From assembly GCA_026874595.1 (NCBI GenBank), contig CM049314.1, forward strand, positions 31,831,229 through 31,895,228: DNA of 64,000 bases. The letters are read 5' to 3'. Made by a program: the position numbers and the translations under genes. Within the stretch, counting starts at the first letter, position 1. Each line of letters begins with the position of its first letter. This document shows, piece by piece, positions 19,097 through 55,354 of the stretch. The notes under the pieces were generated by a model. The model made no database searches, was not told where the DNA came from, and worked only from the letters and a program-made list of their open reading frames with translations. This stretch comes from Sipunculus nudus (lineage: Eukaryota > Annelida > Sipuncula > Golfingiida > Sipunculidae).

Positions 19097-20107
19097 ATGT
19101 CGCGGCAGCTCTCGGTACTCAATGTAAGACTTATTTCATTGTGTCTAATATTAACTACATCATTCTTATCGATAGAATACATTTTTAATGGAAAAAACGT
19201 AGCCTATTCGATTGGAAAGGCAACAAAAATTCTGGAAGATACTGAGCCAATAATGAAAGGATTACGCACTGGTTGTAGCTCAGGATACCTGCCTAATTAC
19301 CCATCTATCTGCGGTAATGATGGGTGTTTAAAAATACTTATTAAACCACAGACGGTGAAAGATGTCATTCCAATGGACAGAAGTCACGTCGATCATTTGA
19401 AATCAGTTTCAGGATGGATGGCCATGGTTCATATAGATGTGATATACCATCTGACACGTGCTCAGAGAGAATTTGGATTATATGGAAGTGTTGGGGAGAT
19501 AGGAGTTTTTGCGGGTCGCTTTACATCAGTGTTATCATACTGGATAGATGGGGAAGCCGGGGAGAGGTTGTTCGTTTGTGACACTTTTGGAAAAGGCCCT
19601 AAAGCAGGAAAGAAGAGTGAAAATGCGAGTTCTTATATATTCGAGAAAAATATGAATAAATTCGGTTATAGTTTGAACGCAACAGGCGAATTCACCCGGA
19701 TGCGTAGCTGGACTGACAGTTCACTTTTCCTGAGTAAATTTTATTTCATTGAAATGGAACTCCCGGCGTTTCGGTTGTTTAGCATCGATGGAAACCACGA
19801 CAGCCCTTTTCCGTTGCTGGATCTGCTGCTGGTGAGTTGCCTCGTTAGAGAGGGCGCAATAATAATAATCGATGACTTCTTAAATAATGCATGCCCAGAT
19901 GTCAAGAAATTAGTCGGACAGTACTTGAACATTTTCGGAGATACACATTTTTTACCGCTTTTCGTTGTTCGCAACAAACTATACATGGTGTCTAAAAACT
20001 GGCACGGTCGATATATGGAATGGTTTGAGAAGAACGATATTCCAAAACTCCTAAATTTTCACAGACAAAGTGGTTTCGGATTTACTGCCGACTTCTACTT
20101 CTTTTGA
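19097..20107 (+). CDS. Golgi-type membrane-anchored SAM methyltransferase, TylF-like (paralog 1)
   Basis: An intact single-exon gene of 336 residues. Residues about 10-29 form one hydrophobic segment after a short basic tail, giving a type II signal anchor with the rest facing the Golgi lumen. GCSSGYLP and SICGNDGC (59-77, Cys 60, 72, 77) form a conserved linker that could make disulfides. The methyltransferase domain runs from about 115: SAM-binding motif GEIGVFAG (133-140), D162 in VCDTFG after the second strand, DGNHD (231-235), and IIDDF (257-261). The last two resemble the metal-binding Asp positions of TylF/MycE-type sugar O-methyltransferases. Possible N-glycosylation sites are N176 and N194. 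The ATG is supported by the same start in paralog 3. TATAAA lies 69 bases upstream but is mutated in paralog 3. It converges with the minus-strand gene at 27319. About 35 residues differ from paralog 3. The methyltransferase fold is well supported; the substrate is unknown. Confidence 0.9.
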   Translation: MSRQLSVLNVRLISLCLILTTSFLSIEYIFNGKNVAYSIGKATKILEDTEPIMKGLRTGCSSGYLPNYPSICGNDGCLKILIKPQTVKDVIPMDRSHVDHLKSVSGWMAMVHIDVIYHLTRAQREFGLYGSVGEIGVFAGRFTSVLSYWIDGEAGERLFVCDTFGKGPKAGKKSENASSYIFEKNMNKFGYSLNATGEFTRMRSWTDSSLFLSKFYFIEMELPAFRLFSIDGNHDSPFPLLDLLLVSCLVREGAIIIIDDFLNNACPDVKKLVGQYLNIFGDTHFLPLFVVRNKLYMVSKNWHGRYMEWFEKNDIPKLLNFHRQSGFGFTADFYFF

Positions 20108-21640
20108 CAACGTGTAGACAGTTCTTTAAAAAACACTCAACAAGGCACCGTTGGTAAATGTACAACCCTATATACAATAGTGTACATTGAGTCAAGACGA
20201 AATTAATTATTATTTTTGTTTTACTACCACGAGAAAGTATTAGTCAAACATCCCCTCCATTAGTATCTTTAAGAAAAGCATATGATCCGGGAATTGAGTA
20301 ACCCGATATCAACCTAAAAATCCTTTTATGGTACCTGGTCACCAAAATTTGTCAGCCTGTGTATAATGTGTAAATATATATTGTGTTATATTCTTTTTAT
20401 GTGTTATATCTTTTATGCTATATTATGATGTATTTCAATAACTTTAATTACTATTAGTACATAAGACTAGTTAATCGTTTTATCTATATCCGTGTGGGGG
20501 TTTTCTATACATGGGATTTGCATTTGAGTTATGTTTCAGTAATGACTGATTTAATAAAAGTTGTTGGTACTCTTTGGTTTATGAATTTATTAAAAGAAGT
20601 CTGTAAATGTTCGACTATGTGTATCTAAACAATGTGTTTGATTTGTTCGACATTAGCAGCTATGATAGAGTGTGACGACTTTTTTGGAGGGTTAAAAAGA
20701 GTACGATTTGTTTGGTAGGGGGCCAAAAACGCTTATATGATTGACAAGCTTGTATTTGAGAAGATATATTCTTCTTTATACTCACAGAACAGAATAATGT
20801 GCGTGATAACGAAGGGTGCTGCTGCTTCTTCTCTGGACTTCATATTAATGGGGACATTCAGTTATCAGTTAACGAAACAAGACTAGGTAATTTGATAAAG
20901 AGTATTTCTAGAGGATTCACACTTGCCCACATCTTAGTTTGCGTTCATTTACGCATGAGAAAGCATAAAGCGATTGGTTTGGTCTGGGGTCTACGTTATT
21001 TAGAAGCCTTCTATGAGAACAGACAAGTTTTGGTAGATCTTGATTTAAATTATTTATGTTTTCATTGTAATTTTACAATAGCATTTAATTACACAATTGT
21101 TTTTATCAGCATTAACAGTCTTAACATGATACAAATACATTATACATATAAAAAAACACAAATTTTTACATATGTATAAAAAATAACGGACTTTAACCAG
21201 AATCATACCGATGTACCAAGCAGTTATTCGTCTCCTCCGAAGAATTTTACACCTATGACAACATTTTTACATTTTGTTTTGTTTCCCTATAAGGTATACT
21301 CTATTCTGATTTGGGCGTTTTCTCTGAGCGTAAATATACCTAGCGTTGGTTACTTTTTATTTCATTTTATGTGATATACTGTAGATTCAGAAATATGAGG
21401 ATCCAACGTGTAACACCACTTTGAAGATTTGATTATATCTTCTACATTCCTTTTCCGAATAAACTTTACAGGAATAAAATTTACAAGAATACAGAAAACA
21501 AAAAGGTACTTCAGAGCAAGATTCATTCATATAGTGTAAGTTCCCTGCATGTTAACATTTAAAAGACTCTTCATGAGTCACTAAAATATAATTTTCTATG
21601 TTCGAATGTTATATTTAGGAGAATATTTGTTCAAACCAAT
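20108..21640. other. 3' flank of paralog 1, no gene
   Basis: Collinear with copy B 55355-56960. The open frame at 20799-21179 is broken in copy B, so it is not treated as a gene. Confidence 0.5.
20553..20558 (+). terminator. Candidate polyadenylation signal AATAAA for paralog 1
   Basis: AATAAA about 450 bases after the stop, conserved in copy B near 55880. The nearer signal of paralog 3 (55386) is mutated in this copy. Usage is unknown. Confidence 0.35.
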
Positions 21641-22352
21641 CCACAAGTTCACGTTTCTCTAGATAGGTCCTTAATCCTTAAAAATTCTGCAAAATCGACC
21701 AATATATGCAAAAATGTTTGTGCAACCTTGCAATAATACAGTTTTATCATCGTTAAAATGTATCAAGTTTACATCATTTGCACTTCCCTTTAGAGCAATT
21801 TTCTCTTTTTACTGCTATTGGCATAATCAAATGCTGCAAGGAACAAATATTGTAATAGTACACCCCCATAACTAACAAGATTAGTATATAGTTAGATACA
21901 TTTTGTTACATAATTCAAATAGTTTGGAAGATTGAACGTTTTGTATTTAAAAATATAGTCCAAATATAAGATTCAGAAAACAAAGGAATTCGCTTTTTTG
22001 TTGTAGTTTACTAGGGCACCACTTTGTGAAGTGATATTGTAAATCTCAGTATAAAGCAACCAATAAGTAGAATGTCATGACTGTTTGATGACATCTCTTT
22101 TTTGGGGGGGGGGGGTGAAACTCGTAAAGTACCTTTAACAAAATGTTCTGTACGTATGCCGTTCCCCAAAAGAAAAAAAACGATAAATGTTCCACTTCGA
22201 CGGGAATATTCTGGTCATTATGTTTTAATATAGAAGTACGATATACTTCATATTTGAAGTTTTTCGACAGAGTTTTGTTGTCCTTTTCAGGGCTGGTTAT
22301 TGCTGGACACTCCTTCTCTTATTTTGACACTTCATCAAGCCCGAAAGGAATG

Positions 22353-23594
22353 TGTGGAATGTTCGTTTGAGAATTATCTAGTGCTTTGGATTATATGTCG
22401 TTTTACCCTCTAACACTGAATTGTGACTAACAATAACATTATCAGTTCATGAACATATCATCCCGTCAATTACGCAAAATATTGTAATATTAATAAATCT
22501 TCTACACTTTGGGAAGCAGATGAGAGAAAGTATCCTTCATCCGAGCTTTGACTGTCATTAGCAACACGAATGAGAACAATTTAGAGATATAAACTCTCAC
22601 TCTCCAAAACTTACATATTCTTTCTGAAAAAGCTGTTCGAAGTTCCGTGTTTTGAGTTTTTCCTTGTGCCCCCTATTGAGAATATTTACCGTTTTATTAG
22701 TTAATATTTATCCTTCTAAAAAGTTACTGGTAATAAAAACAATGCTGCAAGCAGTTGTCTATTATTAATCAGAAAAGCTATTTTGGAAAAAAAATATCGA
22801 AACGTTTCTGTAATATAAAAATCATGACACAATACTTAAACCCTGGAACAAATTGTCCCTATAAGGAGGGTGAAATACGCGGAAAACACAATATCCAGGT
22901 TACGGTACAGTTAAAAACCTAAATGAAGCTTGAACATGTCACGGATCAACCAAAAATTTAGGAAATGTCCCCTTTTACAAATTACAAACAGTGCGTAGAC
23001 AAAAACCATGATCAAGCATTGATGATTTCTTAAAGACATAGAACCAGGCATGAACTTATCTGTGGGAAGTAGGTGTGTATCAGGCACAGTATACTTGCTG
23101 CAGCATCCTAAGGTAGGTGAAATTAGCTCCTTATCGGTATAAAAAAGAAAGGTGAGGCTTTATAAACTGACATCACCAATGATGTTACTTTCATCGGACT
23201 GTACACTTTGCAGTCCTGGTCTTTCATGCCTGTACATTGCTGTTGCTTTTCTAGGCTCCCCAGGGAGTACCCGACACACGTAGCCATAACAGGAGCTAGA
23301 AGGTGTTTCGGTCTACATCTGCCTGTCGATCATGAGCAGTACCCATTCACTCCTGGGTCGAGTGAGCGCACCCTTTTGGTAAAGTCTTTAGCCAGGAGTC
23401 TTAGCGTAGACGGCGGTCTAAACGGGGCGTGAACCTACAAGTATGCGGTCGGGAGTCCAGGGACTAAGTCACTACGCAACCCAGCTCCTCGTCAGTAGTT
23501 TCTCAATCTGCACTTATAATCCTGGGACAATTGCTTTAAAAGAAAACGAAAATTGTTTGGAAAACGTTTGTGAAGCATATATCCATATTATTCA
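22353..23594. repeat. 1.25 kb direct repeat, unit 1
   Basis: Pairs with 23605-24856 through its length: 'aataaatcttc..cactt..gaagcagatga', 'caacacgaatg.gaacaattta', 'gcatgaacttatctg', 'acgtagccataacagga', and 'tttctcaatctgcacttat'. The part at 23200-23500 is less AT-rich than its surroundings. On the minus strand it has short motifs reminiscent of RNA polymerase III A and B boxes (TGACTTAGT near 23467, GGTTCACGCC near 23430). That is a weak hint of a tRNA-derived SINE. Confidence 0.8.
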
Positions 23595-23604
23595 TGTTAT
23601 ATAT

Positions 23605-24856
23605 GGAGTGTTCGTTTAAGCAGACAATGTTAATTATCTAATCCTTTGGATTTTATCTAGTTTTCCTGAGTTGTGACTGTCACGATAACATGAGAAGTTT
23701 ATGAACATTTCATCCCGTCAAACTACTTAAAATATTGTAACATTAATAAATCTTCAGCACTTCATGAAGCAGATGATCCTTCGTCGGAGCTTTACCTGTC
23801 CTTAGCAACACGAATGGGAACAATTTAAAAATATAAACTCACACTCCAAAACTCACATATTCTATCTGAAGATGTTTCTTACCGAGAAGTTAAAATATCT
23901 GATCGAAATTCTGTATTTTGAGTTTTTCCTAATGCTTCCTATTGAAAATATTTACGTTTTTATTAGTAAATATTTATCCTTCCAAAAAAAAGTTACTGGT
24001 AAAATAAACAATGCTGCAAGCATTTGCCAATTATTAATTATAAAAGCTTTTTTTTAAAAAAACATATCCAAACTTGGTTTCTGTAAAATAAAAATCATGA
24101 AAAAATACTGAAACCCTGGAACAGATTGCCTCTATAAGGAGGATGAAACACACAGAAACACACAATGGCCAGGTCAAAGACAGTTCAAACAACTAAATGA
24201 AGCTTTAACATGGCACTGATCACCCGGAAAGTTAGGAAATACCCCTTTTACAAACTTTAAACAAAGCGTAGACAAAAACAATGATCAAGCATTGATAATT
24301 TCATGAAGGTATGCAACCAGGCATGAACTTATCTGGGGAAGCTAGGTGTGTATCAGGCACAATATACTTGCTGCAGCATCCTAAGGTAGGTGAAATGAGC
24401 TCCATATCAGTATAAAAAGAAAAGGTCCGGCTTTATAATCTGACGTCACCAACGATGTTACTTTCATCGGACTGTATACTTTGCATTCCTGGTCTTTCGT
24501 GCCTGTAAATCGCTGTTGCTTTTCTAGGCCCCCAAGGGAGTACCCGACACACGTAGCCATAACAGGAACTTTTAGGTGTTAAGGTCTACATCTGCCTATC
24601 GATCATGACCAGTACCAAATCGCTCCTGGGTCGAGGGAGGTACACCATTGTGGTAAAGTCTTTAGCTAGGGGTCTTAGCGTAGACGGCCATCTAAACGGG
24701 GCGTGAACCTACAACTATGCGGTCACGATTTAAGGGACTAAGTCGTTAGTCCATGCTTCTCGTTAGCAGTTTCTCAATCTGCACTTATTATCCTGGGAAC
24801 CTTGAAAGGAAAACGAAAATCTTTCGGAAAACATTTGTAAAGCTTTTATCCATGAT
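23605..24856. repeat. 1.25 kb direct repeat, unit 2
   Basis: The second unit, adjacent to and in the same orientation as unit 1, with about 10-15% difference by eye and several small indels. The short open frames in unit 1 do not persist here, so the repeat is treated as noncoding. Confidence 0.8.
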
Positions 24857-24859
24857 ATG

Positions 24860-25180
24860 CAGATTAACGCTAGGGTGATTCGTTCTTGAGCCTTTCAAAT
24901 TGTCGTTGCCCTTCTCCCATGAATGCTGCTTTTCGCCGTGCTCCAACGCTTTGTCCATACATTGTAATACCTGATTAAACAAAATAATCTTATTGTACGA
25001 TAAAACTAAATCATTAAGAAGCACATTCTTAGCCCTTTCGTTAACCTCTAGTACAAATAGGTCGGTGCAGAAAGAATCAGAAGCCTGAAATAACATTTTT
25101 GATGATCCGACCATGAGGTAAGTCCCCTTGCCATGTAAGGAAATTTTCAGGTATACAATTGAATATCAGGATAACATAAT
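24860..25180 (-). pseudogene. Unclassified coding-like stretch
   Basis: The minus strand is open with protein-like composition: KGTYLMVGSSKMLFQASDSF, then CTDLFVLEVNERAKNVLLND, LVLSYNKIILFNQVLQCMDK and ALEHGEKQHSWEKGNDNLKG. Charged and hydrophobic residues are balanced, unlike chance frames in this AT-rich DNA. It may start at ATG 25114 or continue upstream; a stop interrupts the upstream frame near 25165. The frame then runs into the 1.25 kb repeat. I do not recognise the family. It could be a transposon protein or the exon of a lost gene. Confidence 0.35.
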
Positions 25181-25590
25181 GACCAGCGGACCAGACGTCC
25201 AAGATAACATGGGGTTAGACGTTGCCAAATGTACGTTTATATCCAATGACAGACCTCATGTTTTCCCTCATTTGGATCAGGAGTTCGAGGATGAATCCAT
25301 TCTTGTCTAGGTGTGATAAAATTCGTGTGGTTTGGTAAGTTCTGAATTTTGCGTACTGTCATTTCCATTCGCTTGAAAATTTAGTAAATAATAAGGTTTT
25401 TTCTGTATTTAGCCAATGTATATAAATGTCATTTGTGTCCTATGGGAAAAACTAAAAAAAACAGTCACATATGTTTGATACTTAACATTTAGAAATAATA
25501 TATATATATTTTTTTTCTTTTTTTTATAACTAATACTTGCTTCTCTTTTCCTGTTTGTAAGTATTCGGTGGCGAAGCAGCGGTACATACT

Positions 25591-27257
25591 TTTCAAGTAG
25601 CAACTTATCATAATTGAGATCACCTTATCGGAAAAAAAACTGCGTCCTTCTGTTGTTGGAATTTCTTTGGACTATCTTGATTTTTTTCTCTATATTTGCT
25701 CTTATTGGTCCAGTTATAACTTAGCTTTTATGGATTAGAATGCCCCCGAGGATGCTCAAACTGACAAAATAAATTTTGTACACGAACGCCTAGTAGTCCA
25801 AAATAAATTTAACAGTATGGAATAAAATAGCCCTGGGATCCTCAAGAGTCAATCTGTATAACCAATTCAGTAACCTTTCTAAAAGTGCTTCTAATACTCT
25901 ATCAACAACCTTAATTCTCTTCATGATAAACAACAATATAAAGGACAAAAGTTTGCTTGTCGGACCAGACATATCTACAAAACACTACTGCCTTCTTAAT
26001 GCCTCTGTTATTGTTAAAACTAACTAACTAATGTATTTTAAGATTCCAGCGAAGAGTACATTTTATGAAGTATCTCCTCCGAGTAGGCGCCATCAATCGG
26101 CAGTTATACAAATCATGATGGGAGCATAATATTGTCACACATTGTTTTGAATGGTCGCTGTGCCCCTAAAGATGGAAACATACCTTCCACTTTTACGATA
26201 ACCCATACTTCTTACCGTTGGTCAAATAGATTATATAGACGATAGAAGACAGTATTCATAGCCCGTAGCACTTTTATTCTCATTGCCAAATGTGCCCGGC
26301 AGACAAATAATAACTTTAAGTATATTAGACAGTCGGGATTTACAAAGTGCATGAAGCATACGGAATATACATCTATTAATTCTGTGAATCATTTTTTTTT
26401 GCCACTTTCATAGAACGAATTTACTTAACAGATATAGCCAATCACTTCGTCCACATAAACATAATACAATATAGCAAGACTGTTTTACACTCTTTTTTTT
26501 ATCCGCGAGACACTGCGTTGGTCGAATCATGAACATTAGCAGGACTTAGTTTATGATATCTAATCTCAACCCTTTAAGCCATTATAGGAAAAATTCAAGG
26601 TGAGGCTCGCTCATGCTGTTGTGTAGACAATATAAACGAAATAACATTTTATGCTAACATTTTAAAATAATTTTATATACAAATGAAAAGCATATCGCAT
26701 CTCACGTGTCAATGTGCCCACATTAAAATCTCCTCTACCAATACACTGTAAAAAGAATTAAACTTTTAAAGAAAAATATATATATTTTGATTAACCAATG
26801 AAAAATTTGCCACAGAAAATTCAACAGAGATTCATAATTTACAAACGGTGCCCCTTCACAAAAGTGAGCGTTAAAATAAGGGTAAAAATAATTTTCAGAC
26901 TTTGCTTTTATAATGTTTACATATGTTTGCATCTGTTGACAGAACAAAAAAAATACAAGCAAGTGATAAAAAAAGCATTGGGACGTCTGCAGGAGAGTTA
27001 TGACCCTTTATGACTATAAGATAGATACCAATATATGAATCATTCTCTAATTTCAGAGCACAAAACATATGATATGACGTTTTGCAACACTTAATTATTC
27101 ATAATTATAACTATCTTTCAACTAAAATGATTTATATATTTAAAGGATCCTTTCTTTGTTTACATTAAATAATACAAAATATTTTAGTGTGAACATATCA
27201 TAGCGTGAACGAATATTTAATCTAATCCATCTTTCCTTGAAGTCGGAATAAACTACG
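25591..27257. other. Intergenic, shared by both copies
   Basis: Collinear with 56960-58675. No open frame is conserved between the copies. This is the 3' flank of the minus-strand methyltransferase gene. Confidence 0.6.
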
Positions 27258-27263
27258 TTTATT
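27258..27263 (-). terminator. Polyadenylation signal AATAAA for paralog 2
   Basis: AATAAA on the minus strand 55 bases after the stop codon, and conserved at the matching place downstream of the copy B pseudogene (near 58680). Confidence 0.6.
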
Positions 27264-27318
27264 CATTTTTCTCAATACATGGATATTACAAAAAAAAAAA
27301 TGACCGTGCTCAAATAAT

Positions 27319-28335
27319 TTAATATTGGTAAAAGTCGACATTAAAGATGAAACCTCTTTTTCGACGAAGCTTTAGACGTTTCGGAATGTCAAATTTGTCA
27401 ATGTATTCCACATATCGACTATGCCAACGTCGGGGCACCAGATAAAGTTTCCCTTTTATCAAAAAGAGCGGGAGATATTGGTTATTTCCGTATATGCGGA
27501 CGAACAGGTCAACTGATTTCTGTACATCCGGCCACTTTCTATTTAGAAAATCGTCTATAGCTATTATCCCTCCGTCCATTAAGATGCAACTTACCAATTC
27601 AAGATCCATGAACGGAAAAGGACTGACATGGTTTCCGTCGATACTGAACAACCGAAAGGCAGGGAGTTTCAGTTGTAAGAAATGGAACTTACTCAAAAGA
27701 GCAGAACTGTCTCTCCAGCTTCGAATTCGGGTTGGTTCATGAAATGAATGTAAAGAATAACCCATCTTATTCATATTTTCTTCAAAAACATCAAGACTAA
27801 TGTTTGTAGGAGGAAAATCTTTCCCTGGGTCTTTCCCGAAGAGGTCACAAACAAACAATCGCTCCCCAGCCCCTTGGTCTAACCAATAGGATAAGACCGT
27901 TGTGAAACGACCTGCATAAACTCCAATCTCCCCAACACTTCCGTATATGCCAAATTCCCTCTGAGCCCTTGTAAGATGATAAACCACATTCACATTCATC
28001 ATGTCCATCCAACCAGGTATTGAATTCAGATAACGTACTGTACCTTCGTCCATTTGTTTTAATTCTTTAACCTCGAGTGGTTGATTTAGGATTTTCAAAC
28101 AGCCACCACTGCCACAGATTGAAGGGAAATGCGGAAGGTAACCTGAACTACAACCTGTCGCTTCGTCTTCCGGGGATGTTTGTTCAAGGGCGGTGATCGA
28201 CATTTCTTCATGGCTGTGTAATGATGTCTGCCTTTCTAAGAGGTATCTACCCATTAGTAAGCTGAAACATATCCCTGTTAACAGAAGAAACGGCAGTCGG
28301 ACATGGGAATGTTTAGTGAACCATGCCATTTTCAT
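27319..28335 (-). CDS. Golgi-type membrane-anchored SAM methyltransferase, TylF-like (paralog 2)
   Basis: An intact single-exon gene of 338 residues, roughly half identical to paralogs 1 and 3. Membrane segment at about 13-32 after a basic tail, a stem of about 28 residues, then GCSSGYLP and SICGSGGC (61-79), which all relatives share. Methyltransferase motifs: GEIGVYAG (135-142), D164 in VCDLFG, DGNHV (233-237), IDDF (260-263), and a WHSRYVEY block near the C-terminus. N178 (NIS) could be glycosylated. ATG codons lie at codons 1 and 3; the second (MAWF) matches the start region of relic 1, so the true start could be two codons later. It faces paralog 1 tail to tail. The relics at 2940, 34729, 58740 and 62010 belong to this minus-strand subfamily. 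The substrate is unknown; glycan O-methylation is inference. Confidence 0.9.
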   Translation of the reverse strand: MKMAWFTKHSHVRLPFLLLTGICFSLLMGRYLLERQTSLHSHEEMSITALEQTSPEDEATGCSSGYLPHFPSICGSGGCLKILNQPLEVKELKQMDEGTVRYLNSIPGWMDMMNVNVVYHLTRAQREFGIYGSVGEIGVYAGRFTTVLSYWLDQGAGERLFVCDLFGKDPGKDFPPTNISLDVFEENMNKMGYSLHSFHEPTRIRSWRDSSALLSKFHFLQLKLPAFRLFSIDGNHVSPFPFMDLELVSCILMDGGIIAIDDFLNRKWPDVQKSVDLFVRIYGNNQYLPLFLIKGKLYLVPRRWHSRYVEYIDKFDIPKRLKLRRKRGFIFNVDFYQY

Positions 28336-42672: not shown

Positions 42673-42711
<39 letters not shown>

Positions 42712-43435: not shown

Positions 43436-43438
43436 TTT

Positions 43439-44273: not shown

Positions 44274-45365
44274 ATGGAGGGTAAACCAGTTGACATAACA
44301 CGGTTCGTCTCCATGCATGGACTCCCTTCTGATGTCAACGAATCTGAGATTATTGAACACTTCTCACAAATTGAAACTCCTACTCATGTTTTGTTTGTTC
44401 GAGAAGCACATACTGGTCGTTGCACTGGCCGCGGTTTTATAGTTTTTGAGACTAAAGACACTGCCAAAAAGGCCATAGATAAGATATCAGGTAGCTCTTT
44501 AGAAAGGGATTCAAGCATCAAAATCTCTCTTGAACATGCAAGGGCTTTCTCCATCACTGAGGTGTCTCATCTGATTTCAAATAAGTTGCTCGATTCGTTA
44601 AATCCTTCTTCCTTTCAGGTACCCGAAGGTAGACGTATCTCAGAGATAGTAACTAAGCTCGATTTTCTTTCAGATCTCGAGGTAAATCAGATGTTTGTGG
44701 AGTTTAAACACCGAAGGGGTGATGTTATACAGGGGCCATCTGGGGCTACTGGTTACAGTGTTATCTCTCCAAAACTGCCCCCATTTTCAGGGAATCAAGA
44801 TAAAACCGGTAGCTACGAACAATGGCGTTCCCATCTCAAATCTATGATAAAAGCTGGCGTAACACCAGAGCCTCAGATTTTGTCAGCGATTCATCAGTCT
44901 GTTAGGGGGACAGCAGGAAATGTTCTTTTACATATGCCCGATGAGTCCACTCCCACAGATATACTGAATAAATTTGACAGACACTTTGGTAATGTGCTCC
45001 CCACAGAGGTTCTTATACAGCAGTTTCACTCATGTAAACAAGATCCTAAAGAGGATATTGTCAACTGGAGCTGCAGGCTTACTAGACAGTTAGACCTCAT
45101 AAACCAGAGAAATCCTACTCCTCATAGGGAATATGAGCGACTTCTTCGGTCTAGATTCTGGAATGGGTTGTATTCTAAGTACATTAAGGAGGCTTTAAGA
45201 CACAGATATGATAATGGGGAAGAACAGGATGAACTCTTTGCAGCAGCACGAGCCTTAGAGTCTGAACTTGTACATCACTCACATATGAGTGACAAGAAAG
45301 TTGCTTCATCCAACCAAATTTCTCAACAAGGGGTTAAACCTTTGTCTCTGTGCTTGAGCATATAA
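44274..45365 (+). CDS. Retrotransposon Gag with N-terminal RRM-like domain
   Basis: Encodes 363 residues of the particle-forming protein. Residues about 10-90 look like an RNA recognition motif: FVSMHGLP (11-18) fits the RNP2 strand and GRGFIVFE (52-59) the RNP1 strand, with helix-like segments after each. The capsid region follows from about 165 (LPPFSGNQ, then YEQWRSHLK at 181-189), in the style of the Gag domain shared by Ty3/gypsy elements and PNMA-type domesticated genes. PNMA proteins also have an RRM-like N-terminus before capsid. The frame closes at 45363-45365, before the zinc knuckle. The next frame (open from 45338) continues with a coiled-coil-like ILENRLSKLE and the knuckle, so a one-base indel near 45340-45360 has probably split an originally single gag. 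Confidence 0.88.
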   Translation: MEGKPVDITRFVSMHGLPSDVNESEIIEHFSQIETPTHVLFVREAHTGRCTGRGFIVFETKDTAKKAIDKISGSSLERDSSIKISLEHARAFSITEVSHLISNKLLDSLNPSSFQVPEGRRISEIVTKLDFLSDLEVNQMFVEFKHRRGDVIQGPSGATGYSVISPKLPPFSGNQDKTGSYEQWRSHLKSMIKAGVTPEPQILSAIHQSVRGTAGNVLLHMPDESTPTDILNKFDRHFGNVLPTEVLIQQFHSCKQDPKEDIVNWSCRLTRQLDLINQRNPTPHREYERLLRSRFWNGLYSKYIKEALRHRYDNGEEQDELFAAARALESELVHHSHMSDKKVASSNQISQQGVKPLSLCLSI

Positions 45366-45577
45366 ATAACAAACTGTCAATCCTAGAGAATCGCTTATCG
45401 AAACTTGAACGATCTCAAATGTCCAAACCAAACAAACCATCACAAACTCAGGCTGAAGTTCGTAACAGTAATACTGTCTCGGACGAAGTCTTTTGCTCTC
45501 GTTGCCTTCGTCACATCCACACTGTTGACAAATGCCATGCCAAACGAGACAAAAACGGGAAAATCCTAAAAAACTAA
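45338..45577 (+). CDS. Gag C-terminal part with CCHC zinc knuckle (frame-displaced)
   Basis: An open frame one base back from the capsid frame, without its own ATG. It encodes a short heptad-like segment (INNKLSILENRLSKLE) and then CSRCLRHIHTVDKC, an exact C-X2-C-X4-H-X4-C nucleocapsid knuckle, ending KILKN and TAA. No canonical slippery site lies in the overlap with the capsid frame, so the offset is best read as a mutation. Its stop directly follows the pol frameshift heptamer. Confidence 0.8.
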   Translation, partial: TFVSVLEHINNKLSILENRLSKLERSQMSKPNKPSQTQAEVRNSNTVSDEVFCSRCLRHIHTVDKCHAKRDKNGKILKN

Positions 45578-45601
45578 GAGTCGCCCGTGATCATTCGTGG
45601 G
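45568..45601 (+). promoter_or_regulatory. -1 ribosomal frameshift signal between gag and pol
   Basis: A-AAA-AAC at 45568-45574 is a canonical slippery heptamer in the correct phase: zero-frame codons AAA and AAC are followed at once by TAA, and a -1 slip enters the pol frame. After a 9-base spacer, CCCGTGA (45584-45590) can pair with TCGTGGG (45595-45601) around a 4-base loop, using two G-U pairs. Heptamer, stop and hairpin spacing fit known retroelement signals. Confidence 0.8.
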
Positions 45602-48108
45602 AGAACACGGGGTCAGGTTATAAAATTCCCACAACAAACGTATGTACTGATAATGTCCCTCTTGTAGGTGAAACACAGGTTGTTGACATGTTTGCAGATG
45701 GTATTAACTGCCAGGGTCTTTTAGATACAGGTTTCCAGGTCTCTACCATTGCTCAATGGTTTTATGAAAAACACCTCAACCCGTCGGACTTAGTCCCTGT
45801 GGAGGAGATGATGGATCTCCGGCAACTGGACGGCCAGCAGGTAGAGTACTGTGGTATCATCGCTGTTGACCTTAAATTTCCTGAAATAAATTCATCTCAG
45901 ACATTCTCTGTGCCAGTATTGGTAATGAAAAACACCCATTTCAATGCCAGTGTTCCATTTTTAATTGGTACGAATGTGCTAAACTCTTGTTTAAATTTTC
46001 TTCAGACAAATGCTGGTCCAAATTTTATTCAAAGTTTACACATGCCCCAACCATGGAACATTGCATTTAAATGTTTGACAAACAGGGAAAAGAAATCAGT
46101 GAATAAAGGAGGTTATGTATTATCCACCAAGTCTACAGTAATACCTGCCCACAGTGATGTTACTATAAATGGTTTAACCAGAGGTTGTACAACAGGCAAG
46201 ACCCTTGTTTTAACTGATGTGAATGTTCTCCACAGGTTACCAACTGGATTGGTTCTACTTCCTTGTGTCCAAGAGCTTGATTTGTCGGTAGGTACAAGTC
46301 ACAGAATTCCAGTACAGGTCAGGAACTTAACATCACATTCCATCATTATTCCATCAAAAATGATACTCTGTAACATACAACAAGCTAGCCTCGTTACCCA
46401 ACTGACACAATCACCTGACCCATCTGATCAACAATTCTTAAACATGTTCAAATTTGGTCAAGATTTGTCACAATCTGAATCTGAACAACTACAACTCCTG
46501 TTGCTTAAATGGAAACACATATTTTCCTTAAGTAATACAGATATTGGTCACACCAGTGTAGAAAAACACCGTATCGTGTTGACTAAAGATGAACCATTTA
46601 GAGAGCGATATCATCGCATCCCTCCACAATTATATGATGAGGTAAAACAACATCTGAAAGAAATGCTAGAGTCAAAAGTAATTAAGGAGAGCAAAAGTCC
46701 GTTTGCTAGTCCAGTAGTCCTTGTCAGAAAACCTGACGGAACTCTTTGTTTCTGTATTGATTATAGAACCCTGAATAGCAGAACTGTTAGAGACGCTCAT
46801 TCCTTGCCAAGAATTGATGAAACCTTAGATTCTTTGATTGGCGCTCGTTACTTTTCCTCTCTAGATTTGAAGTCTGGTTACTGGCAGGTTGAGTTAGCCG
46901 AAGAAGATAAAGATAAAACAGCTTTTACAGTAGGTCCTCTCGGTTTTTATCAATGGGAAACCATGCCATTTGGCTTGGTGAACGCCCCTGCCTGCTTCCA
47001 AAGACTGATGCAGAAGACTATGGGTGATCTCCATTTAAAAGAATGTCTTCTCTATCTTGACGATATAATCGTATTCTCTACCTCCTTTGAAGAACACCTA
47101 AAACGCTTGAATAACATCTTTCAGCGTCTGCATGACGCAGGCCTAAAACTAAAACCTTCAAAGTGCCAGCTGATGCAAGATAAAGTAAAATACCTAGGAC
47201 ATATAGTCTCAAAAGAAGGTATACATACTGACCAGAGTAAAATCAGCGCTCTTAAAGAATGGCCTATACCTAAGTGTGTCAGTGATGTACGCCGTTTCTT
47301 GGGCTTTGCGAGTTTCTATCGTAGATTTGTCCCTGGATTTGCTAAAATCGCAAAACCATTACATGACTTACTGAAAGGCCACCATATTCAGAATCAAACA
47401 AAAACCAGTAATCGTACCAGAAAGAAAGTTCCATCTCAAACAATCTTTAACTGGTCAAATAACCACCAACTAGCATTTGATCAATTAATAGGACTACTAT
47501 CTTCTGCTCCTGTACTATCGTCTGCAGATTTCTCTCGTCCGTTTATTGTTCATACTGATGCAAGTTTTGATGGGATCTCTGGTATTCTGTACCTAGATCA
47601 AGATGGCCAGAAAAGACCAATAGCTTATGCGAGCCGAAGCCTAACACCATCAGAGTCTCGGTACCCTATTCATAAGTTAGAGTTCTTAGCTTTAAAGTGG
47701 TGTGTAACCGATAAATTTAAAGAATATCTGTATGGATCACGGTTCACAGTGTTCACTGATAACAATCCTCTAACTTACATAATGTCCTCCGCAAAATTAG
47801 ATGCAACAGGTCAAAGATGGGTATCTGAATTGGCTAACCACGACTTTAATATTCAATATAAAGCCGGCAAGCATAACATCGACGCCGAGGCACTTTCGAG
47901 AATCCCTCGGCTTCTAGCAGAAAAGAAAAAACACAATCAATGTATTAGCAATGATGTAGTAAAAGCTGTTTGTCAATCAGTGACCATACCATCACCTGTA
48001 ATATGTAGTCTTTCTTGTGACCAATCCAAAGCTCTTCCATCCACGGATCCTGTCAATTTGCTCGGACAAACACGATTAAACGTAGCAAAGGAACAACTTC
48101 TGTATTAG
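45574..48108 (+). CDS. Pol part 1: protease, reverse transcriptase, RNase H
   Basis: Read by -1 frameshift from gag. The frame is open from 45532 (in-frame ATG), and residue numbers here count from it, 858 in all. Protease: LLDTGFQVS with the catalytic DTG at 65-67. Reverse transcriptase: KSPFASPVVLVRKPDG, IDYRTLN, LDLKSGYWQV, MPFGLVNAP and the catalytic YLDD at 508-511, then the thumb KYLGHIVS and RRFLGFASFYRRF. RNase H: HTDASFDG (Asp near 676), YASRSLTPSESRYP-KLEFLA, FTDNNPL and an HNIDAEALSR end. Spacing is normal for Ty3/gypsy. It ends at TAG (48106-48108), after which the same frame continues into integrase, so the TAG is probably a nonsense mutation. Confidence 0.93.
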   Translation, partial: LRVARDHSWENTGSGYKIPTTNVCTDNVPLVGETQVVDMFADGINCQGLLDTGFQVSTIAQWFYEKHLNPSDLVPVEEMMDLRQLDGQQVEYCGIIAVDLKFPEINSSQTFSVPVLVMKNTHFNASVPFLIGTNVLNSCLNFLQTNAGPNFIQSLHMPQPWNIAFKCLTNREKKSVNKGGYVLSTKSTVIPAHSDVTINGLTRGCTTGKTLVLTDVNVLHRLPTGLVLLPCVQELDLSVGTSHRIPVQVRNLTSHSIIIPSKMILCNIQQASLVTQLTQSPDPSDQQFLNMFKFGQDLSQSESEQLQLLLLKWKHIFSLSNTDIGHTSVEKHRIVLTKDEPFRERYHRIPPQLYDEVKQHLKEMLESKVIKESKSPFASPVVLVRKPDGTLCFCIDYRTLNSRTVRDAHSLPRIDETLDSLIGARYFSSLDLKSGYWQVELAEEDKDKTAFTVGPLGFYQWETMPFGLVNAPACFQRLMQKTMGDLHLKECLLYLDDIIVFSTSFEEHLKRLNNIFQRLHDAGLKLKPSKCQLMQDKVKYLGHIVSKEGIHTDQSKISALKEWPIPKCVSDVRRFLGFASFYRRFVPGFAKIAKPLHDLLKGHHIQNQTKTSNRTRKKVPSQTIFNWSNNHQLAFDQLIGLLSSAPVLSSADFSRPFIVHTDASFDGISGILYLDQDGQKRPIAYASRSLTPSESRYPIHKLEFLALKWCVTDKFKEYLYGSRFTVFTDNNPLTYIMSSAKLDATGQRWVSELANHDFNIQYKAGKHNIDAEALSRIPRLLAEKKKHNQCISNDVVKAVCQSVTIPSPVICSLSCDQSKALPSTDPVNLLGQTRLNVAKEQLLY

Positions 48109-49116
48109 AATCTGAACCCATTCATTGTCCATTTCAGAGACGGTAAGGTCATAAACAAGAAAGACTTGACTCATCCTGATCAAATAATTCTTTTCAGATG
48201 TATAGATAGCCTTGTGCTGCGGGATGACATACTCTATCGTAAACGAACACTGAACGGCAAAATTCAGTATCAAATAGTAATACCTAGCAGGTTGCGACAA
48301 GTCGCTTTATCTGGTATTCATGACGATGTAGGGCATCTAGGTCGTAATCGGTCTGTCCATCTAGCCCATGACCAATTTTACTGGCCAAAAATGTCTAAAG
48401 ACATAGATTCATACATTAAGAATTGTCCACGCTGTATAAGGCGGAAGTCCCCTCCAGCAAAAGCTCCTTTAGTACCTATAACATCCACACAACCAATGGA
48501 GCTCCTATGTGTCGATTATCTTAGCCTTGAGCCATCTACAGGTGGAATTGAAAATATTCTGGTCATGACCGATAATTTCACACGCTACGCTATGGCAGTT
48601 CCTTGTCGCAATACTACGGCAAAGACTACAGCTAAAATACTATTTGACACATTTGTCCAACATAATGGCTTTCCAGCCCGCATCCACAGTGATCAGGGCA
48701 GACAATTTGAATCTAAAATCATCAAAGAACTATGCAGACTAGCTTGTATCCATAAATCACGATGTACACCGTACCATCCAATGGGGAATGGGCAAACCGA
48801 AAGGTTTAACCGTAGTTTAATCAGTATGTTGGGTACTCTTGAGGAAGAGAAAAAGAAAAACTGGAAAGAATACGTCAGTGCTTTAACTCATGCCTATAAT
48901 TGTACGAAAAATGATGCAACCGGTTATACACCTTTCTATTTAATGTTCGGTCGACATCCACGCCTCCCTATTGATCTAGTACTTGGGACCAACAACAATC
49001 CTAACCATCAAAATTACAACACATATGTTTCCGATCTAAAAGACCAACTTTCTTCTGCCTATGATATTGCTCAACGTCTCTTTATCATCCAGGTATCACC
49101 ACAAACGATTGTATGA
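48109..49116 (+). CDS. Pol part 2: integrase (DD35E)
   Basis: In the same frame as pol part 1, separated only by one TAG. A zinc-binding HHCC domain (H..H in GIHDDVGHLG to NCPRCIRRK) is followed by the catalytic core. Core acids are Asp in CVDYL (48514), Asp in SDQGRQFE (48691) and Glu in GQTERF (48799), with 35 residues between the second Asp and Glu, the DD35E signature. AYNCTKNDATGYTPFYLMFGR marks the end of the core. The frame closes at 49114-49116 after a one-base indel near 49080; the true continuation (YHHKRLYDKR, then a GDHVLVRK block) is in another frame. Confidence 0.92.
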   Translation, partial: NLNPFIVHFRDGKVINKKDLTHPDQIILFRCIDSLVLRDDILYRKRTLNGKIQYQIVIPSRLRQVALSGIHDDVGHLGRNRSVHLAHDQFYWPKMSKDIDSYIKNCPRCIRRKSPPAKAPLVPITSTQPMELLCVDYLSLEPSTGGIENILVMTDNFTRYAMAVPCRNTTAKTTAKILFDTFVQHNGFPARIHSDQGRQFESKIIKELCRLACIHKSRCTPYHPMGNGQTERFNRSLISMLGTLEEEKKKNWKEYVSALTHAYNCTKNDATGYTPFYLMFGRHPRLPIDLVLGTNNNPNHQNYNTYVSDLKDQLSSAYDIAQRLFIIQVSPQTIV

Positions 49117-49868
49117 TAAACGTGCTTGCAATGCGGTGCTGGGTATTGGTGATCACGTCTTAGTACGAAAGGTAGGGATCATTGGGAAACAGAAACTGGT
49201 CGATAAATGGGAAAAGTAGGTGTATGAGGTATTGGAACAACCCAATAAGGATATTCCAGTATATGTTGTTTGCCCCTTGGGTGATAAAAAGCGTACTCGC
49301 ACTCTGCATCGCAATCTGATCCTTCCATATACAGGATTGCCCGTCGACCCTACACAAAAACCAGTTTCCACAACACACAAACCAATTATTACATCATCAG
49401 TGTCAGGGTCAGAAGACTCATCAACAGATGACGACCCCATTTTCACTATAACTCCAAATAATCGTCCCAACATGAGTAGTTCTGAGGATGTGAGCGAGTT
49501 GCATTTAGAACTTGAATTATCGGATGATACAGATGATGATGCAATTGCGTCTGATCACTCTAATACATTCCTGATAAATGGTTCTACTGATGATTGCGAT
49601 GCAAATGTTGATACCGTAAATACTACAGGTCTTGATGATGACGTCACTGGTGTGTTAAACGATGACGCCAAAGGTGATAATGACAATATATCACAACTAC
49701 ACGATGACCATGACGTCATCTCAAGTCATGATCATAATAATGATGGAAATAGCGCCCCAATATCTGATCAGAGTGGGGATCCGGATGTTAATCCAGTACG
49801 TAGATCTACCCGTACGTAGAGAACGACGTATGCCAGAACGTTTTGGGGACTATGTACTTAACGGGTGA
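49085..49868 (+). pseudogene. Pol C-terminus: integrase tail and acidic extension, broken
   Basis: Continues integrase in the frame displaced by one base: a YDKRACNAVLGIGDHVLVRK segment, a TAG near 49217, then VYEVLEQPNKDIPVYVV and a TRTLHRNLILPY block that together resemble the GPY/F-type integrase end. A long Asp/Ser-rich low-complexity stretch follows (49400-49790). It ends in an RRSTR then RRMPERFGDYV motif typical of gypsy pol termini, reached only through a second indel near 49815. Confidence 0.75.
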
Positions 49869-50300
49869 TAATATTTTTAAACAAGTGCATGTGTCAACAT
49901 AAGTATGTTTAGGATAAGTTCCTTGCGTAAGCTACATGACTCGTTCTGAGATTTGACGAGTCAGTGATATCATTATACGATTTTTTTTTTTTGCGTATGC
50001 TGACTTTCTCCACTGCCACCAGTTTCTGGGTTTTTCACTTTCATATATGTATACATCATGTGAACATAATGTTCCGATATAAACATCTATCCGAAATCCT
50101 ACTAGAGGCAGTCCACTGCTAATGCTGTCATGCGCGACCTATCGTTCTTTGCAGTTAGTGTCGGGACGCCACTTCTCTACTGGGGGGAGCGTTTGGTATA
50201 TGGTGTGGATGATGTGCTGTTGGTATGGTGTGGTGGATCTGATATAATTTTTACTAACTTTTCTCGTACATTAATGTCGGTTCGACATTTTTTTTCAAGT

Positions 50301-50310
50301 AGGGGGAGGA
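50301..50310 (+). other. Polypurine tract
   Basis: AGGGGGAGGA directly abuts the first base of the 3' LTR, the expected site of plus-strand priming. Confidence 0.9.
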
Positions 50311-51084
50311 TGTAACGCCTCCGATAACACGTATTATATTATCAGGTATAACTGAATTGCCTGGCAGGTATCATATCATCAGCTTGGCCTAACTGGTCAA
50401 TGAATTGCCCCGCAGTTGCCTTGGTTGCCTTGTTTGCTTGGTTCCTCATTACTCAACCGGTTTTCCGTTGTTCCTATTGTTTTCATTCGGACAATGACAC
50501 GGACCGCGACGCGAACCCTGCCAAGCCTCAGTCTCGTGACATAGAGAACTTGTCAGTATTCGTTCTCTGCTTGGCAGGTAAGGACCGTTTTTACTAAACT
50601 CTTAAACTGCGATAAACTCTATCATTTAGCCAATTCATTACTTTCAGTATATCACGTACGTACTATCATGTAAACTGTATATTCCATATTCTAATTGCAC
50701 ACGTTACTGGTAAATTCATACTTGTTGTACGCATGGATATTTGTATTCATGGTAATATGCAACGATATCTTAAAATGTGGTTCCTAAATATATAGGCTCA
50801 TTTGTATAATATGTAATGTGTTTTCTTGTGTAATGAATACCAAGAAATGTGCAAATGTATATTCTGTATATTTCATGCCATTTATTGTATTTTTGCACCA
50901 TATAGAAAAGTTTATATGAAATGTTTAATGTGAGTATTCGTTCTCTGCTTGGCAGGGACTCCGGCTTGGAGGACTCCAGATTTGTATATATATACGGCTG
51001 AATAAACACTTATATATATATAAATCGCCTTGCCTCGCTTTTCACTCACGCCGGGTGACTTTGGCTCTTGCCGGGAACACCCGT

Positions 51085-51088
<4 letters not shown>
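50311..51088 (+). repeat. 3' LTR (778 bp)
   Basis: Nearly identical to the 5' LTR but 54 bases longer. It holds two copies of a 23-base direct repeat (50555-50577 and 50933-50955), both ending in TTGGCAG. The first is followed by GTAAGG and the second has a pyrimidine-rich lead, so the pair looks like a splice donor and acceptor inside the LTR. The donor side is lost in the 5' LTR. Confidence 0.95.

Positions 51089-51132
<44 letters not shown>
51089..51132. repeat. (TA)n microsatellite, right flank of LTR element
   Basis: The continuation of the TA tract that the element split; the left part is 42673-42709. Confidence 0.9.
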
Positions 51133-51143
<11 letters not shown>

Positions 51144-52564
51144 GCATTTATATATAGTTTAAGACTTCAACCTACAATGGTTTTACAGTGAAGGCAGATG
51201 ACTCAGCAGACAGAGAAATATAACTTGGTTTAACCACCATTCAGTGACAACTAGCCACCACCAATGTACGCAAATTCTTTACGCTACTAAACAAATGATC
51301 CAAAGCTTGGCATAAACTAAACAAGTTACTGAACAAAAGCACTCTTAAACTAAGTAACAGCAGCATGCAGAACATTTGCCATATCATTTCAGCGCACAAC
51401 AAGTCTGTATTGTATAAACGTAAACCACAGCAAGATGAATAGTGCCTGCCGAAGCCTTGGTATGCATTGTCGTATATTGTACACTGTTCGGTGTTTTATA
51501 CTGTTAAGGTTCTTACATATATGTGATACAGGTACATCGGCCATCATTGACACGTATGCATAATTCCTGTACACACTTCAAAATACATATATGCATATAC
51601 ACACTTCAAAATACTAAGGCTTCCATTTCAGCAGTTCCATACATGTGATCAACAAGGTGACGTGACAGGTTTTTGTTTACATTTTGTGCTTCATTTTTTT
51701 AGCTCAGATGATTCTAGGTCTTCTAAGCTGGACCGACCACCTACTTCCATAGTCTTGCCCTTTAAAAAAGTATTGTAGCATTTACTCATATAAATTCCAA
51801 CCATTTATCCAGAGAGGTAATGGTGAGATTTCTGTAAAACCATACATTAGGTGTCTTTGGCTTATAATCTATGAGCCACAGGAGAAAAAATTATCAGTTA
51901 TCTTACTGCTCGAGGGTGATAGGAAACTACATATATTCTATATATTCTATTTTTAAATTATTTACTATCGTTTACTCATTTGTGAAAGTACTTTTAAATG
52001 TTTCAACAAGATCAGACCAGTTTTTTTAGGGCTGCAGGGCTATTGATATCACTATTTCATGTTATTATTTATGTGTATAGACGTGGTGTAAAATTTATTA
52101 AAATCAAGAATCGCTGATTATATCAACTCTATATTATAATATAATATTATCCTCAGACTTGTACGTGTATTAAAGCTGCAGGTGAATTGACCTATACCTG
52201 CGAGAGAGTATAATATTCCACCTTTTCCAACAAAGTGAAAAAAAACATACTACTTCAGCTGCCTTATCATGATATATATCCCTCAGAGAGAAGACAATAA
52301 CCTAAGTATAAATTGACTTGATATTTTTAATTCAGCCATGACAGGCCTCAAATGTTGCTCGTTTCAAATTTAAAGTGCATTTAGTTTGCAAATACGATGT
52401 TATGTCTTTTACCGAGTATCTTAATAAAGTCTAAGGCTAAAAGCAAATGTTAACATCGCGTTAATCATGTGACAGCTTGTTGCAATGTTTGATGATATTT
52501 GTGTTAAAAATTGTAATATCAGTAATAAAATAATGATCATGTGACTTAATGGTAGCCACGGGTT
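51133..52564. other. Noncoding part of copy B after the LTR element
   Basis: Collinear with 15606-16965, then a gap of about 200 bases relative to copy A. No conserved open frame. Confidence 0.6.
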
Positions 52565-53620
52565 TCACCACTTACGTTGTCCTTTTCTAATGCTTGATAA
52601 CAAATTTTTGCAAAGATGATTATGATGATCAGTGTTTGTAGCTGATCTAGGTTTGTTTGTACGAAGATGACCTGTCAGGCTTATCCAGACACGGCAGAAT
52701 CCCCACATGTATGGCACATGTGTTGATTGGTAGCTGTAGAGGTAGTTGCCATCCTCGCATTGCGCACCACATGATTCCTTTGGAATTCCCCCAGTCATGA
52801 TATTTCAGCGTCTTCTGCATTTTTCCACGTATCTATGTTGATAGATAGGGATTTTTAGCAATGATTCCGGACTGTCCTGGTAGCGCCTAAGCTCAACTAC
52901 GATGGATCTTTACTAAATATCGATTCTCCATACAAATTATTTTGGGGCGTCTTGAATCTGATATTGGGCAAACGTGCCTTGCCCAGTGAACGTGCGATCG
53001 ATGCGAGATGGTGTAGATTGATCGGAGATTAGTAGCCTTGCCATCTTGTGTTCATCAATCGACGGAGGCAGACCAGGTGAAATAGGTTAAGTTGTTTGGT
53101 ATGTCTTCCAAAGACAGTCTAAGTCTCGCATCCATGTATTGGTTTCAAGATGGATACCTCTTCACTATCAGACGTTGGAGCAGAGTTAACGAAATGCAGC
53201 GCTGGCCTTTGCCACTCTGCTCGTCATCTATGTTTACTGTCTTTTAAAAATGTGCTGCCTAGGTATGTGGATGTGTCCAGGTCCTTCAGATTTGATCCAT
53301 GCACCATGGTGGCGGATTCATCATATCACTTTCCTGGTACTAGTTTGTTAATCATTTATTATTTATGCATATGGTAAGCCCGTAGTTGTCACATACATTG
53401 AAGAGAAACTGGTCCATGTTGTGCTTCATTTCTGATTCCGTAGTTGCATTCATAGCTCAGTTGTCAGCAAAGACTAGGTCATGGATAGTGGTTGTTCTGA
53501 CTTTCGTAACTGAATTCAGTCTTCTGCTGTTGAGGAGCTTTTTGTCTTACATCCCCCTGTTATCAAATAGCATGCATGTATTTGCACAGAATGAATTCAG
53601 TAAAAGGAGTGTCAAGTGGT
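52565..53620 (-). mobile_element. LINE 3' relic in copy B
   Basis: The copy B counterpart of 17390-18345. The minus strand keeps HDLVFADN (catalytic box, with the second D changed to N and a stop next to it), a NATTESEM segment, and a C-terminal tail WGFCRVWISLTGHLRTN that matches the GL..HLRTH zinc-finger-like end of this LINE type better than copy A does. Several stops and deletions. Confidence 0.75.
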
Positions 53621-54343
53621 GAATGACTGACTGCAACTATCAGTGTCATGCTTAGCAAGGCACATATTCTATAATTACCCTTAGGATTTCGAATATTATA
53701 TATGGAGACCTTTTGTTAATGTGTCCGTTAAACAAAAAATTAAATCCCCGTGAGCTATTCTTGGCAGTATTGCTGGTTCTCCTGAGCTTCATGGCCAGTG
53801 GAATACTTGTTAATCGGTTACAGTTACATATTTTAATATAATTATCATGTAACACATTGCATATGGCAATTTCAAATAAAGATATATTTTAAAAGCTGTG
53901 ATTTATAAAGTATTGCCTGTGTTTGCAGATAGAATTTTTACCTCATAAACTGAATTTTTTATATAAATAATGTATTTATGAACAAATAATTTTAAACCTT
54001 GTCTGAGGATTATTTTTAAATGAAGCGAGAACAAGTTTGAAGACTTTGATCGACTTTGTTTAAATCTTTTACGTGGAATGGGCTTTAGAAAATAGATTCC
54101 TTAGTGTTAAGATATAATTGGTTTATTATGTTGCTTTCATTATAATACTGTTCCTAATCGTTACAGAAAACCTACGGGAAGGGCATCACGTGACAAAAAC
54201 TCGATTCTAAAATCGTTCCCAATTCGTATTTCAGCAAGAATAGAATACTGAAAGTTGTCATGAATGTATTTAGAGGATATGAATGCGAATAATTTGGAAT
54301 AAAGTTGAGAGTAATATAAAACATTTCCAGTAAAAAGGAGAAT

Positions 54344-55354
54344 ATGTCACGGCAGCTCTCGGTACTCCATGTAAGAATGATTTCTTTGTGTCTAATATTA
54401 ACTATAGCATTCATATCTATAGAATACATTTTTAATGGAAAAAACGTAGCCTACTACACTGGAAAGGCAACAAAAAATCTGGATGATACTGAGCCATTAA
54501 TGAAAGGATTAAGCATTGGTTGTAGCTCAGGATACCTGCCTAATTATCCATCTATCTGCGGTAATGATGGGTGTTTGAAAATACTTAGCAAACCACGGAG
54601 GGTTAAAGATGTAATACCAATGGACAAAAGCCACGTTGGTCATTTAAAATCGGTTTCGGGATGGATGGACACGGTGCATATAGATGTGGTATACCATCTG
54701 ACACGTGCTCAGAGAGAATTTGGATTATATGGAAGTGTTGGGGAGATAGGAGTGTTTGCGGGTCGCTTTACATCCGTGTTATCTTACTGGATAGATGTGG
54801 AAGCTGGGGAGAGGTTGTTCGTTTGTGACACTTTTGGAAAAGGGCCAAAAACAGGAAAGAAGAGTGAAAATGCGAGTTCTTATATATTCGAGAAAAATAT
54901 GAATAAATTCGGTTATAGTTTGAACGCAACAGATGATTTCACCCGGATTCGTAGCTGGACCGACAGTTCACTTTTTCTGAGTAAATTTTACTTCATTGAA
55001 ATGAAACTCCCGTCGTTTCGGCTGTTTAGCATCGATGGAAACCACGACAGCCCTTTCCCGTTGTTGGATCTGCTGCTGGTGAGTTGCCTCGTTAGAGAGG
55101 GTGCAATAATAATAATCGATGATTTCTTAAATAATGCATGCCCGGATGTCAGGAAATTAGTCGGACAGTACTTGCACCTGTTCGGAGATACTCATTTTCT
55201 TCCGATTTTCATCGTTCGCAGTAAACTGTATATGGTACCTAAAAACTGGCACGGTCGATACATGGAATGGTTTGAGAAGAACGATATTCCAAAACTCCTA
55301 AATGTTCACAGACAAAGTGGTTTCGGATTTACTGCCGACTTCTACTTCTTTTGA
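54344..55354 (+). CDS. Golgi-type membrane-anchored SAM methyltransferase, TylF-like (paralog 3)
   Basis: An intact single-exon gene of 336 residues and the copy B counterpart of paralog 1, with no gaps between them. By eye 35 residues differ, 12 of them in the first 58 (tail, membrane segment, stem), while GEIGVFAG, VCDTFG, DGNHDSPF, and IIDDF are unchanged. That distribution suggests selection to keep the catalytic domain. One membrane segment at about 10-29, conserved Cys 60, 72 and 77, possible N-glycosylation at N176 and N194. Upstream, 'tgtataaaga' of copy A reads 'tgtatttaga', so the distal TATA candidate is lost. AATAAA follows 32 bases after the stop. Both neighbours in copy B are damaged: the minus-strand partner is a pseudogene and the LTR element lies 3.3 kb upstream. 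Confidence 0.9.
   Translation: MSRQLSVLHVRMISLCLILTIAFISIEYIFNGKNVAYYTGKATKNLDDTEPLMKGLSIGCSSGYLPNYPSICGNDGCLKILSKPRRVKDVIPMDKSHVGHLKSVSGWMDTVHIDVVYHLTRAQREFGLYGSVGEIGVFAGRFTSVLSYWIDVEAGERLFVCDTFGKGPKTGKKSENASSYIFEKNMNKFGYSLNATDDFTRIRSWTDSSLFLSKFYFIEMKLPSFRLFSIDGNHDSPFPLLDLLLVSCLVREGAIIIIDDFLNNACPDVRKLVGQYLHLFGDTHFLPIFIVRSKLYMVPKNWHGRYMEWFEKNDIPKLLNVHRQSGFGFTADFYFF

Follow-up and report, generated by a model that had tools for sequence, protein, structure and literature searches.

Among the described enzymes closest to the proteins considered here is MeT1 of Mycobacterium hassiacum (PDB 6g7d, 6g80, 6h40), the methylmannose polysaccharide 1-O-methyltransferase, which is the solved protein nearest to them by sequence profile. 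MycE and ThnM1 are enzymes of bacterial natural-product pathways, and MycE is larger than the animal proteins. Methyltransf_24 proteins of Azospirillum, Nostoc, and their relatives share the catalytic domain, and some of them are encoded inside exopolysaccharide gene clusters. We have analyzed a 64 000-nucleotide stretch of the Sipunculus nudus genome (hereafter, the window; C9:31831229-31895228), which holds three intact genes and four relics of a methyltransferase family, and a genome-wide protein search was run over the 1.43 Gb assembly. MeT1 differs from the animal proteins in that it is bacterial, has no membrane anchor or cysteine segment, and is only about 16% identical to them in structural alignment. 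We propose, with a probability of roughly 0.6, that the animal proteins are membrane-anchored, probably lumenal, metal-dependent sugar O-methyltransferases with a bacterial-type catalytic domain. Within this proposal, we infer the metal, the catalytic roles, the sugar acceptor, the lumenal orientation, the Golgi location, and any division of labour among the copies.

Gene A (19097..20107, plus strand, 336 residues, a single coding exon), gene B (27319..28335, minus strand, 338 residues), and gene C (54344..55354, plus strand, 336 residues) are intact, and their coding parts contain no intron. They match the Pfam family Methyltransf_24 (PF13578) with E values of 3.1e-8, 5.1e-9, and 3.9e-8, respectively, scoring 34.5-37.4 bits against a curated cut-off of 26.3. 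The A and C proteins are 90% identical, while B is 55% identical to A and 54% to C. We simulated 100 windows of 64 kb with matching dinucleotide content; their longest open reading frame (ORF) starting with ATG had 180 residues, with a median of 118, so ORFs of 336-338 residues are far beyond chance. The initial annotation of the window had described three intact intronless ORFs with shared motifs, and GCSSGYLP..SICG..GCL, GEIGVF/YAGRF, IDGNH, and IDDF are indeed found in all three. It had also counted four relics in the 64 kb, and these are present, three of them outside the range 19097-55354 to which it referred. All four are on the minus strand and are damaged by frame changes, stops, or truncation. 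The relics at 3095..3827 and 58777..59578 have broken frames, while that at 34744..35157 retains the C-terminal part only and that at 62011..62388 the N-terminal part only, each with one in-frame stop. In genes A and C, a pyrimidine-AG acceptor-like site is located about 100 nt 5' of the ATG (at 19097 and 54344), followed by short upstream ORFs. Judging from these sequences, an intron in the 5' untranslated region of genes A and C is possible.

Fifteen of the 17 intact copies found in the genome were scanned against profile libraries at E up to 0.1. All 15 match Methyltransf_24, and none matches TylF (PF05711). The models of A and B have the predicted fold of class I S-adenosylmethionine (SAM)-dependent methyltransferases, of the seven-strand Rossmann type, as the initial annotation had supposed. 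With fold rows within 1 Z counted as tied, the top-ranked folds for both models are those of the sugar O-methyltransferases SpnH, MycF, NovP, and MeT1. The description of the proteins as TylF-like is thus apt for the modelled fold, where SpnH and MycF are top-ranked, yet not for the Pfam profile or for the motif, which is of the MycE/MeT1 type. SpnH, the TylF-type enzyme in our alignment, has no His in its DG motif, unlike the animal copies. NCBIfam gave no methyltransferase model under the same threshold, and one stray match. Phmmer searches of the PDB with one window protein and with the C1 copy gave nothing significant. A PHROGs phage DNA methyltransferase family matched 14 of the 15 copies (E 0.0027 for A, best 8.2e-8), which we took as fold background and rejected.

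The putative SAM-binding loop of gene A is GSVGEIGVFAG, residues 130-140 (19484..19516, plus strand). The proposed metal and catalytic residues, D231-x2-H234...D259-D260, are in residues 231-260 (19787..19876, plus strand). The Asp, the His at +3, and the Asp at +29 are kept in all 17 intact animal copies and in all 51 homologues checked, and MeT1 shares the same D-x2-H and Asp at +29 when aligned and counted. D275, H278, and D304 of MycE/ThnM1, as given in a passage of PMC9275233, correspond to D231, H234, and D260 in order and spacing. MycE and ThnM1 are not among the matches listed in our sequence or fold searches, which is no evidence against a relation.

A hydrophobic stretch is found near the N-terminus of all 17 intact copies, with a mean hydropathy of 1.5-2.9 for the best 19-mer and a net charge of +1 to +3 ahead of it. 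In gene A, the predicted membrane anchor comprises residues 12-30 (19130..19186, plus strand), the best N-terminal 19-mer, preceded by a net positive flank. The type II membrane topology suggested in the initial annotation is thus predicted for every intact copy, and the layout would be that of a type II Golgi enzyme, with a short tail, one anchor, a stem, and a C-terminal catalytic domain. After the anchor, a variable stem is followed by the cysteine segment and then by the domain, whose motifs are GSVGEIG, a pair CD, DG(N/S)H, and DD. The cysteine segment of gene A, C-x2-G...C-G-x3-C-L-x2-L, occupies residues 60-81 (19274..19339, plus strand). In an alignment of 15 of the 17 intact copies, with two close copies left out, C60, C72, and C77 are invariant, as are C161 and C248. 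None of the 32 aligned bacterial and viral rows has Cys at the positions of C72, C77, C161, or C248; column 60 has C in two rows (L110, L111), within an otherwise unaligned stretch. As a set, the five cysteines thus mark the animal copies among these aligned rows. The initial annotation had suggested that the cysteine segment may be family-specific, and it is found only in animal copies among the sequences compared.

The genome search gave 35 protein matches, which merged into 31 places on C1, C4, C6, C9, and C16; these copy counts are lower bounds. An intact ORF with all motifs is present at 17 places, including one (L020) with a shortened C-terminus, and 12 places are broken or partial. At the remaining two, L022 is an open but N-truncated frame, and L023 (520-1926; on C4) is an open paralogue of 468 residues, which still has both the cysteine segment and the GEIG motif. 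In L023, DGSA and LQDH replace DGNH and DD, so that active-site residues are lost, and from its sequence it may be inactive or altered in chemistry. The cluster on C9 extends past the window, with 13 places at 31.828-31.960 Mb, 5 intact and 8 broken.

The close duplicates are under purifying selection. Nonsynonymous changes are below expectation in all eight close pairs (Fisher tests, p from 6e-11 to 0.017, uncorrected, with some pairs sharing a member). The ratio of nonsynonymous to synonymous rates (dN/dS) for A and C is 0.22 overall. The cysteine segment (0.09) and the methyltransferase core (0.11) lie below this value, and the N-terminus including the anchor (0.46) and the 23-codon stem (1.5) above it, although the values for single segments rest on few changes. 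The L006/L007 pair is looser, with a dN/dS of 0.54 overall and 0.48 in the core.

Bacterial proteins align with the animal copies across the catalytic domain. Nothing in the aligned bacterial and viral rows corresponds to the anchor and cysteine segment; six of these rows had been shortened at their N-termini beforehand. With an animal-only alignment as the query, scans of GTDB and IMG/VR gave no relatives. When bacterial sequences from a plasmid tblastn search were added to the query, 24 loci were found in the bacterial genome scan, 18 of them labelled alphaproteobacterial, and 39 in the viral contig scan. Relatives of gene B and of L015, the copy on C1, occur among plasmid and phage records. 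L015 is 33-37% identical to proteins of Nostoc and of the exopolysaccharide-cluster Azospirillum plasmids, with E down to 1e-30, and 22-34% identical to the other plasmid matches. It is also the only one of the 17 intact copies that keeps a SGKGD stretch common in bacteria. The 17 animal copies form one group in the tree (100/100), within which the 16 others are apart from L015 (99/97); the tree, rooted at the midpoint only, gives no clear nearest bacterial branch.

A polysaccharide or glycosyltransferase gene is a neighbour in four of six annotated plasmid and phage contexts, counting two Azospirillum p3 regions as one and leaving two unannotated plasmid regions outside the count. The neighbours are genes for polysaccharide export, a CpsF-type glycosyltransferase, and a polyprenyl glycosylphosphotransferase in Azospirillum p3; several glycosyltransferases, an ABC transporter, and galE in Azospirillum TSH58 p06; two glycosyltransferases in Methylosinus; and one glycosyltransferase about 4.4 kb away in phage C48C1. 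No glycan genes were seen in the Nostoc and Kitasatospora contexts. Among 15 GTDB loci scanned individually (40 ORFs in total), three (L093, L106, L110) have a clear polysaccharide or glycosyltransferase gene, and an FkbM methyltransferase is a neighbour at L102 and L110. In control regions of 50 kb elsewhere on two plasmids, 0 of 48 and 0 of 50 genes are named for glycan work, while a third control region, on the TSH58 plasmid, is itself rich in glycan genes. With mixed neighbours and one glycan-rich control, we rejected bacterial gene context as sufficient proof of a sugar function.

In the proposed mechanism, the animal proteins would be single-pass type II membrane enzymes with the C-terminal domain inside the lumen of the secretory pathway, most likely the Golgi, and would move a methyl group from SAM onto a sugar hydroxyl of glycans. 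The GEIG loop and D162 would hold SAM, and D231, D259, and D260 would hold a divalent metal, which in turn would bind adjacent hydroxyls of the sugar. The base would be H234 or an Asp beside it. A bacterial-type methyltransferase domain, linked to exopolysaccharide genes in part of the bacteria, would have gained an N-terminal extension made up of signal anchor, variable stem, and cysteine segment. The fused gene would then have multiplied, and the copies may differ in acceptor or in the position methylated. A more specific and tentative history is that a bacterial gene for an exopolysaccharide O-methyltransferase was taken up by an animal lineage, gained a Golgi anchor and a new cysteine module, and expanded into position-specific invertebrate glycan methyltransferases. 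Although we hold it doubtful as it stands, such a capture would explain why the coding regions have no introns, the single well-supported animal group in which the chromosome-1 copy splits first and is the most bacteria-like, and why the enzymes escaped identification.

Several observations weigh against the proposal of lumenal sugar O-methyltransferases. For model B, MeT1 (Z 16.9) is tied with other O-methyltransferases (16.5), and for model A, SafC (15.8) is level with MeT1 and one entry for MycF (15.8-15.9). An animal-only profile gave no significant solved relative in an hmmsearch of the PDB. Twelve of the 15 GTDB loci have no clear polysaccharide gene, with few ORFs scanned per locus. The anchor is predicted from hydropathy and charge alone, and in four of the 17 copies (L001, L003, L004, L005) the most hydrophobic 19-mer is in the catalytic core. 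Finally, five invariant cysteines are an odd number, which makes the disulfide pattern ambiguous, and the cysteine segment is modelled mostly at a predicted local distance difference test score (pLDDT) below 50.

The sugar likeness might reflect only a fold shared by metal-dependent O-methyltransferases, the acceptor of the lumenal or secreted enzyme being a small metabolite, a lipid, or a peptide. We consider this possible but improbable, since both the nearest solved sequence and the folds ranked highest belong to sugar enzymes, which also lends partial support to the sugar O-methyltransferase function put forward in the initial annotation, and since some bacterial relatives are inside exopolysaccharide clusters. 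Furthermore, COMT-type enzymes are not known to have the D-x2-H signature. Less probable still is a sugar O-methyltransferase that faces the cytosol, or is secreted after signal-peptide cleavage, with an acceptor other than a Golgi glycan. A hydrophobic N-terminus by itself cannot tell a signal peptide from an anchor, and the four copies with a more hydrophobic core 19-mer fit this alternative. However, the positive flank and the N-terminal hydropathy hold for all 17 copies, and the animal-only cysteines suit an oxidising lumen. The rapid change of the stem between A and C, with constraint on the cysteine segment and core, also argues for an anchored enzyme; a fast stem and a constrained catalytic domain are typical of type II Golgi enzymes. 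That the copies are catalytically dead or decaying, chance survivors in a region that duplicates, is very unlikely. Although 12 of the 31 places are broken or partial, L023 has lost its DxxH...DD residues, and L022 its N-terminus, no active-site residue is missing from any of the 17 intact copies, and the deficit of nonsynonymous changes is seen in each of the eight close pairs.

The window contains a segmental duplication, and the multiple copies within it are partly due to this. The first copy (12351..28167) holds A and B, and the second (40024..59536) holds C, a B-type relic, and a long terminal repeat (LTR) retroelement. The two match blockwise, with 79-87% identity in the seven blocks of more than 500 bases, so that A corresponds to C, and B to the broken relic at 58777-59578. 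The retroelement, of the Ty3/gypsy type, was inserted into the second copy at 42710-51089. Its LTRs differ at 6 mismatched positions, in addition to gaps, in an alignment of 781 columns, so it looks young. Its gag ORF (44274-45365) has an RRM domain joined to a PNMA-type gag.

Elsewhere in the assembly, a second single-exon Methyltransf_24 group is present on C5 (L039, 783-1661; L040, 391-1287), with an N-terminal hydrophobic stretch and an IDGGH/VDGSH motif but without the cysteine segment. Bacterial-looking contigs (C60-C89, C97, and C123; L041, L117-L121) are also present. C62 (2.0 Mb) and C89 (3.3 Mb) encode identical O-methyltransferase proteins of 209 residues. A COX1 search found bacterial-looking copies and one weak fragment on C5; the COX1-type oxidase genes are on eight contigs with near-identical scores, two of them on C89, 2.04 Mb apart. 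The C123 oxidase we take, from its appearance, to be of the cbb3 type. These contigs are perhaps one or more symbionts or contaminants, with several assembled copies. A search of the genome for molluscan haemocyanin domains gave no match, and neither did its control, so this negative speaks neither for nor against a mollusc.

What might such enzymes do in an invertebrate? According to two reports (PMC8699351, PMC10301044), invertebrate glycans carry 3-O-methylmannose, 3- and 4-O-methylgalactose, and O-methylated fucose and N-acetylgalactosamine, and the methyl positions on fucose and N-acetylgalactosamine are species-specific in oysters (PMC10301044). To account for these activities, sugar O-methyltransferases in the lumen would be required, probably more than one and differing in the position methylated, and in the portions of the reports examined no gene is assigned to them. 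A passage on Caenorhabditis elegans states that its glycan-methylating enzymes are still to be identified (PMC7614267), and a term search of a review of mollusc N-glycans did not find the word methyltransferase (PMC8699351). PMC6994554 cites the biochemical isolation, in 1998, of a sialate 8-O-methyltransferase from starfish. The catalytic kind is already known; the animal proteins are a variant of it, with an anchor, the cysteines, many copies, and a bacterial-type domain, of which our literature searches gave no description. From their sequences, members of this family are candidates for the enzymes that methylate invertebrate glycans, and with 17 intact anchored candidates, the question of invertebrate glycan methylation becomes open to experiment by expression and knockout.

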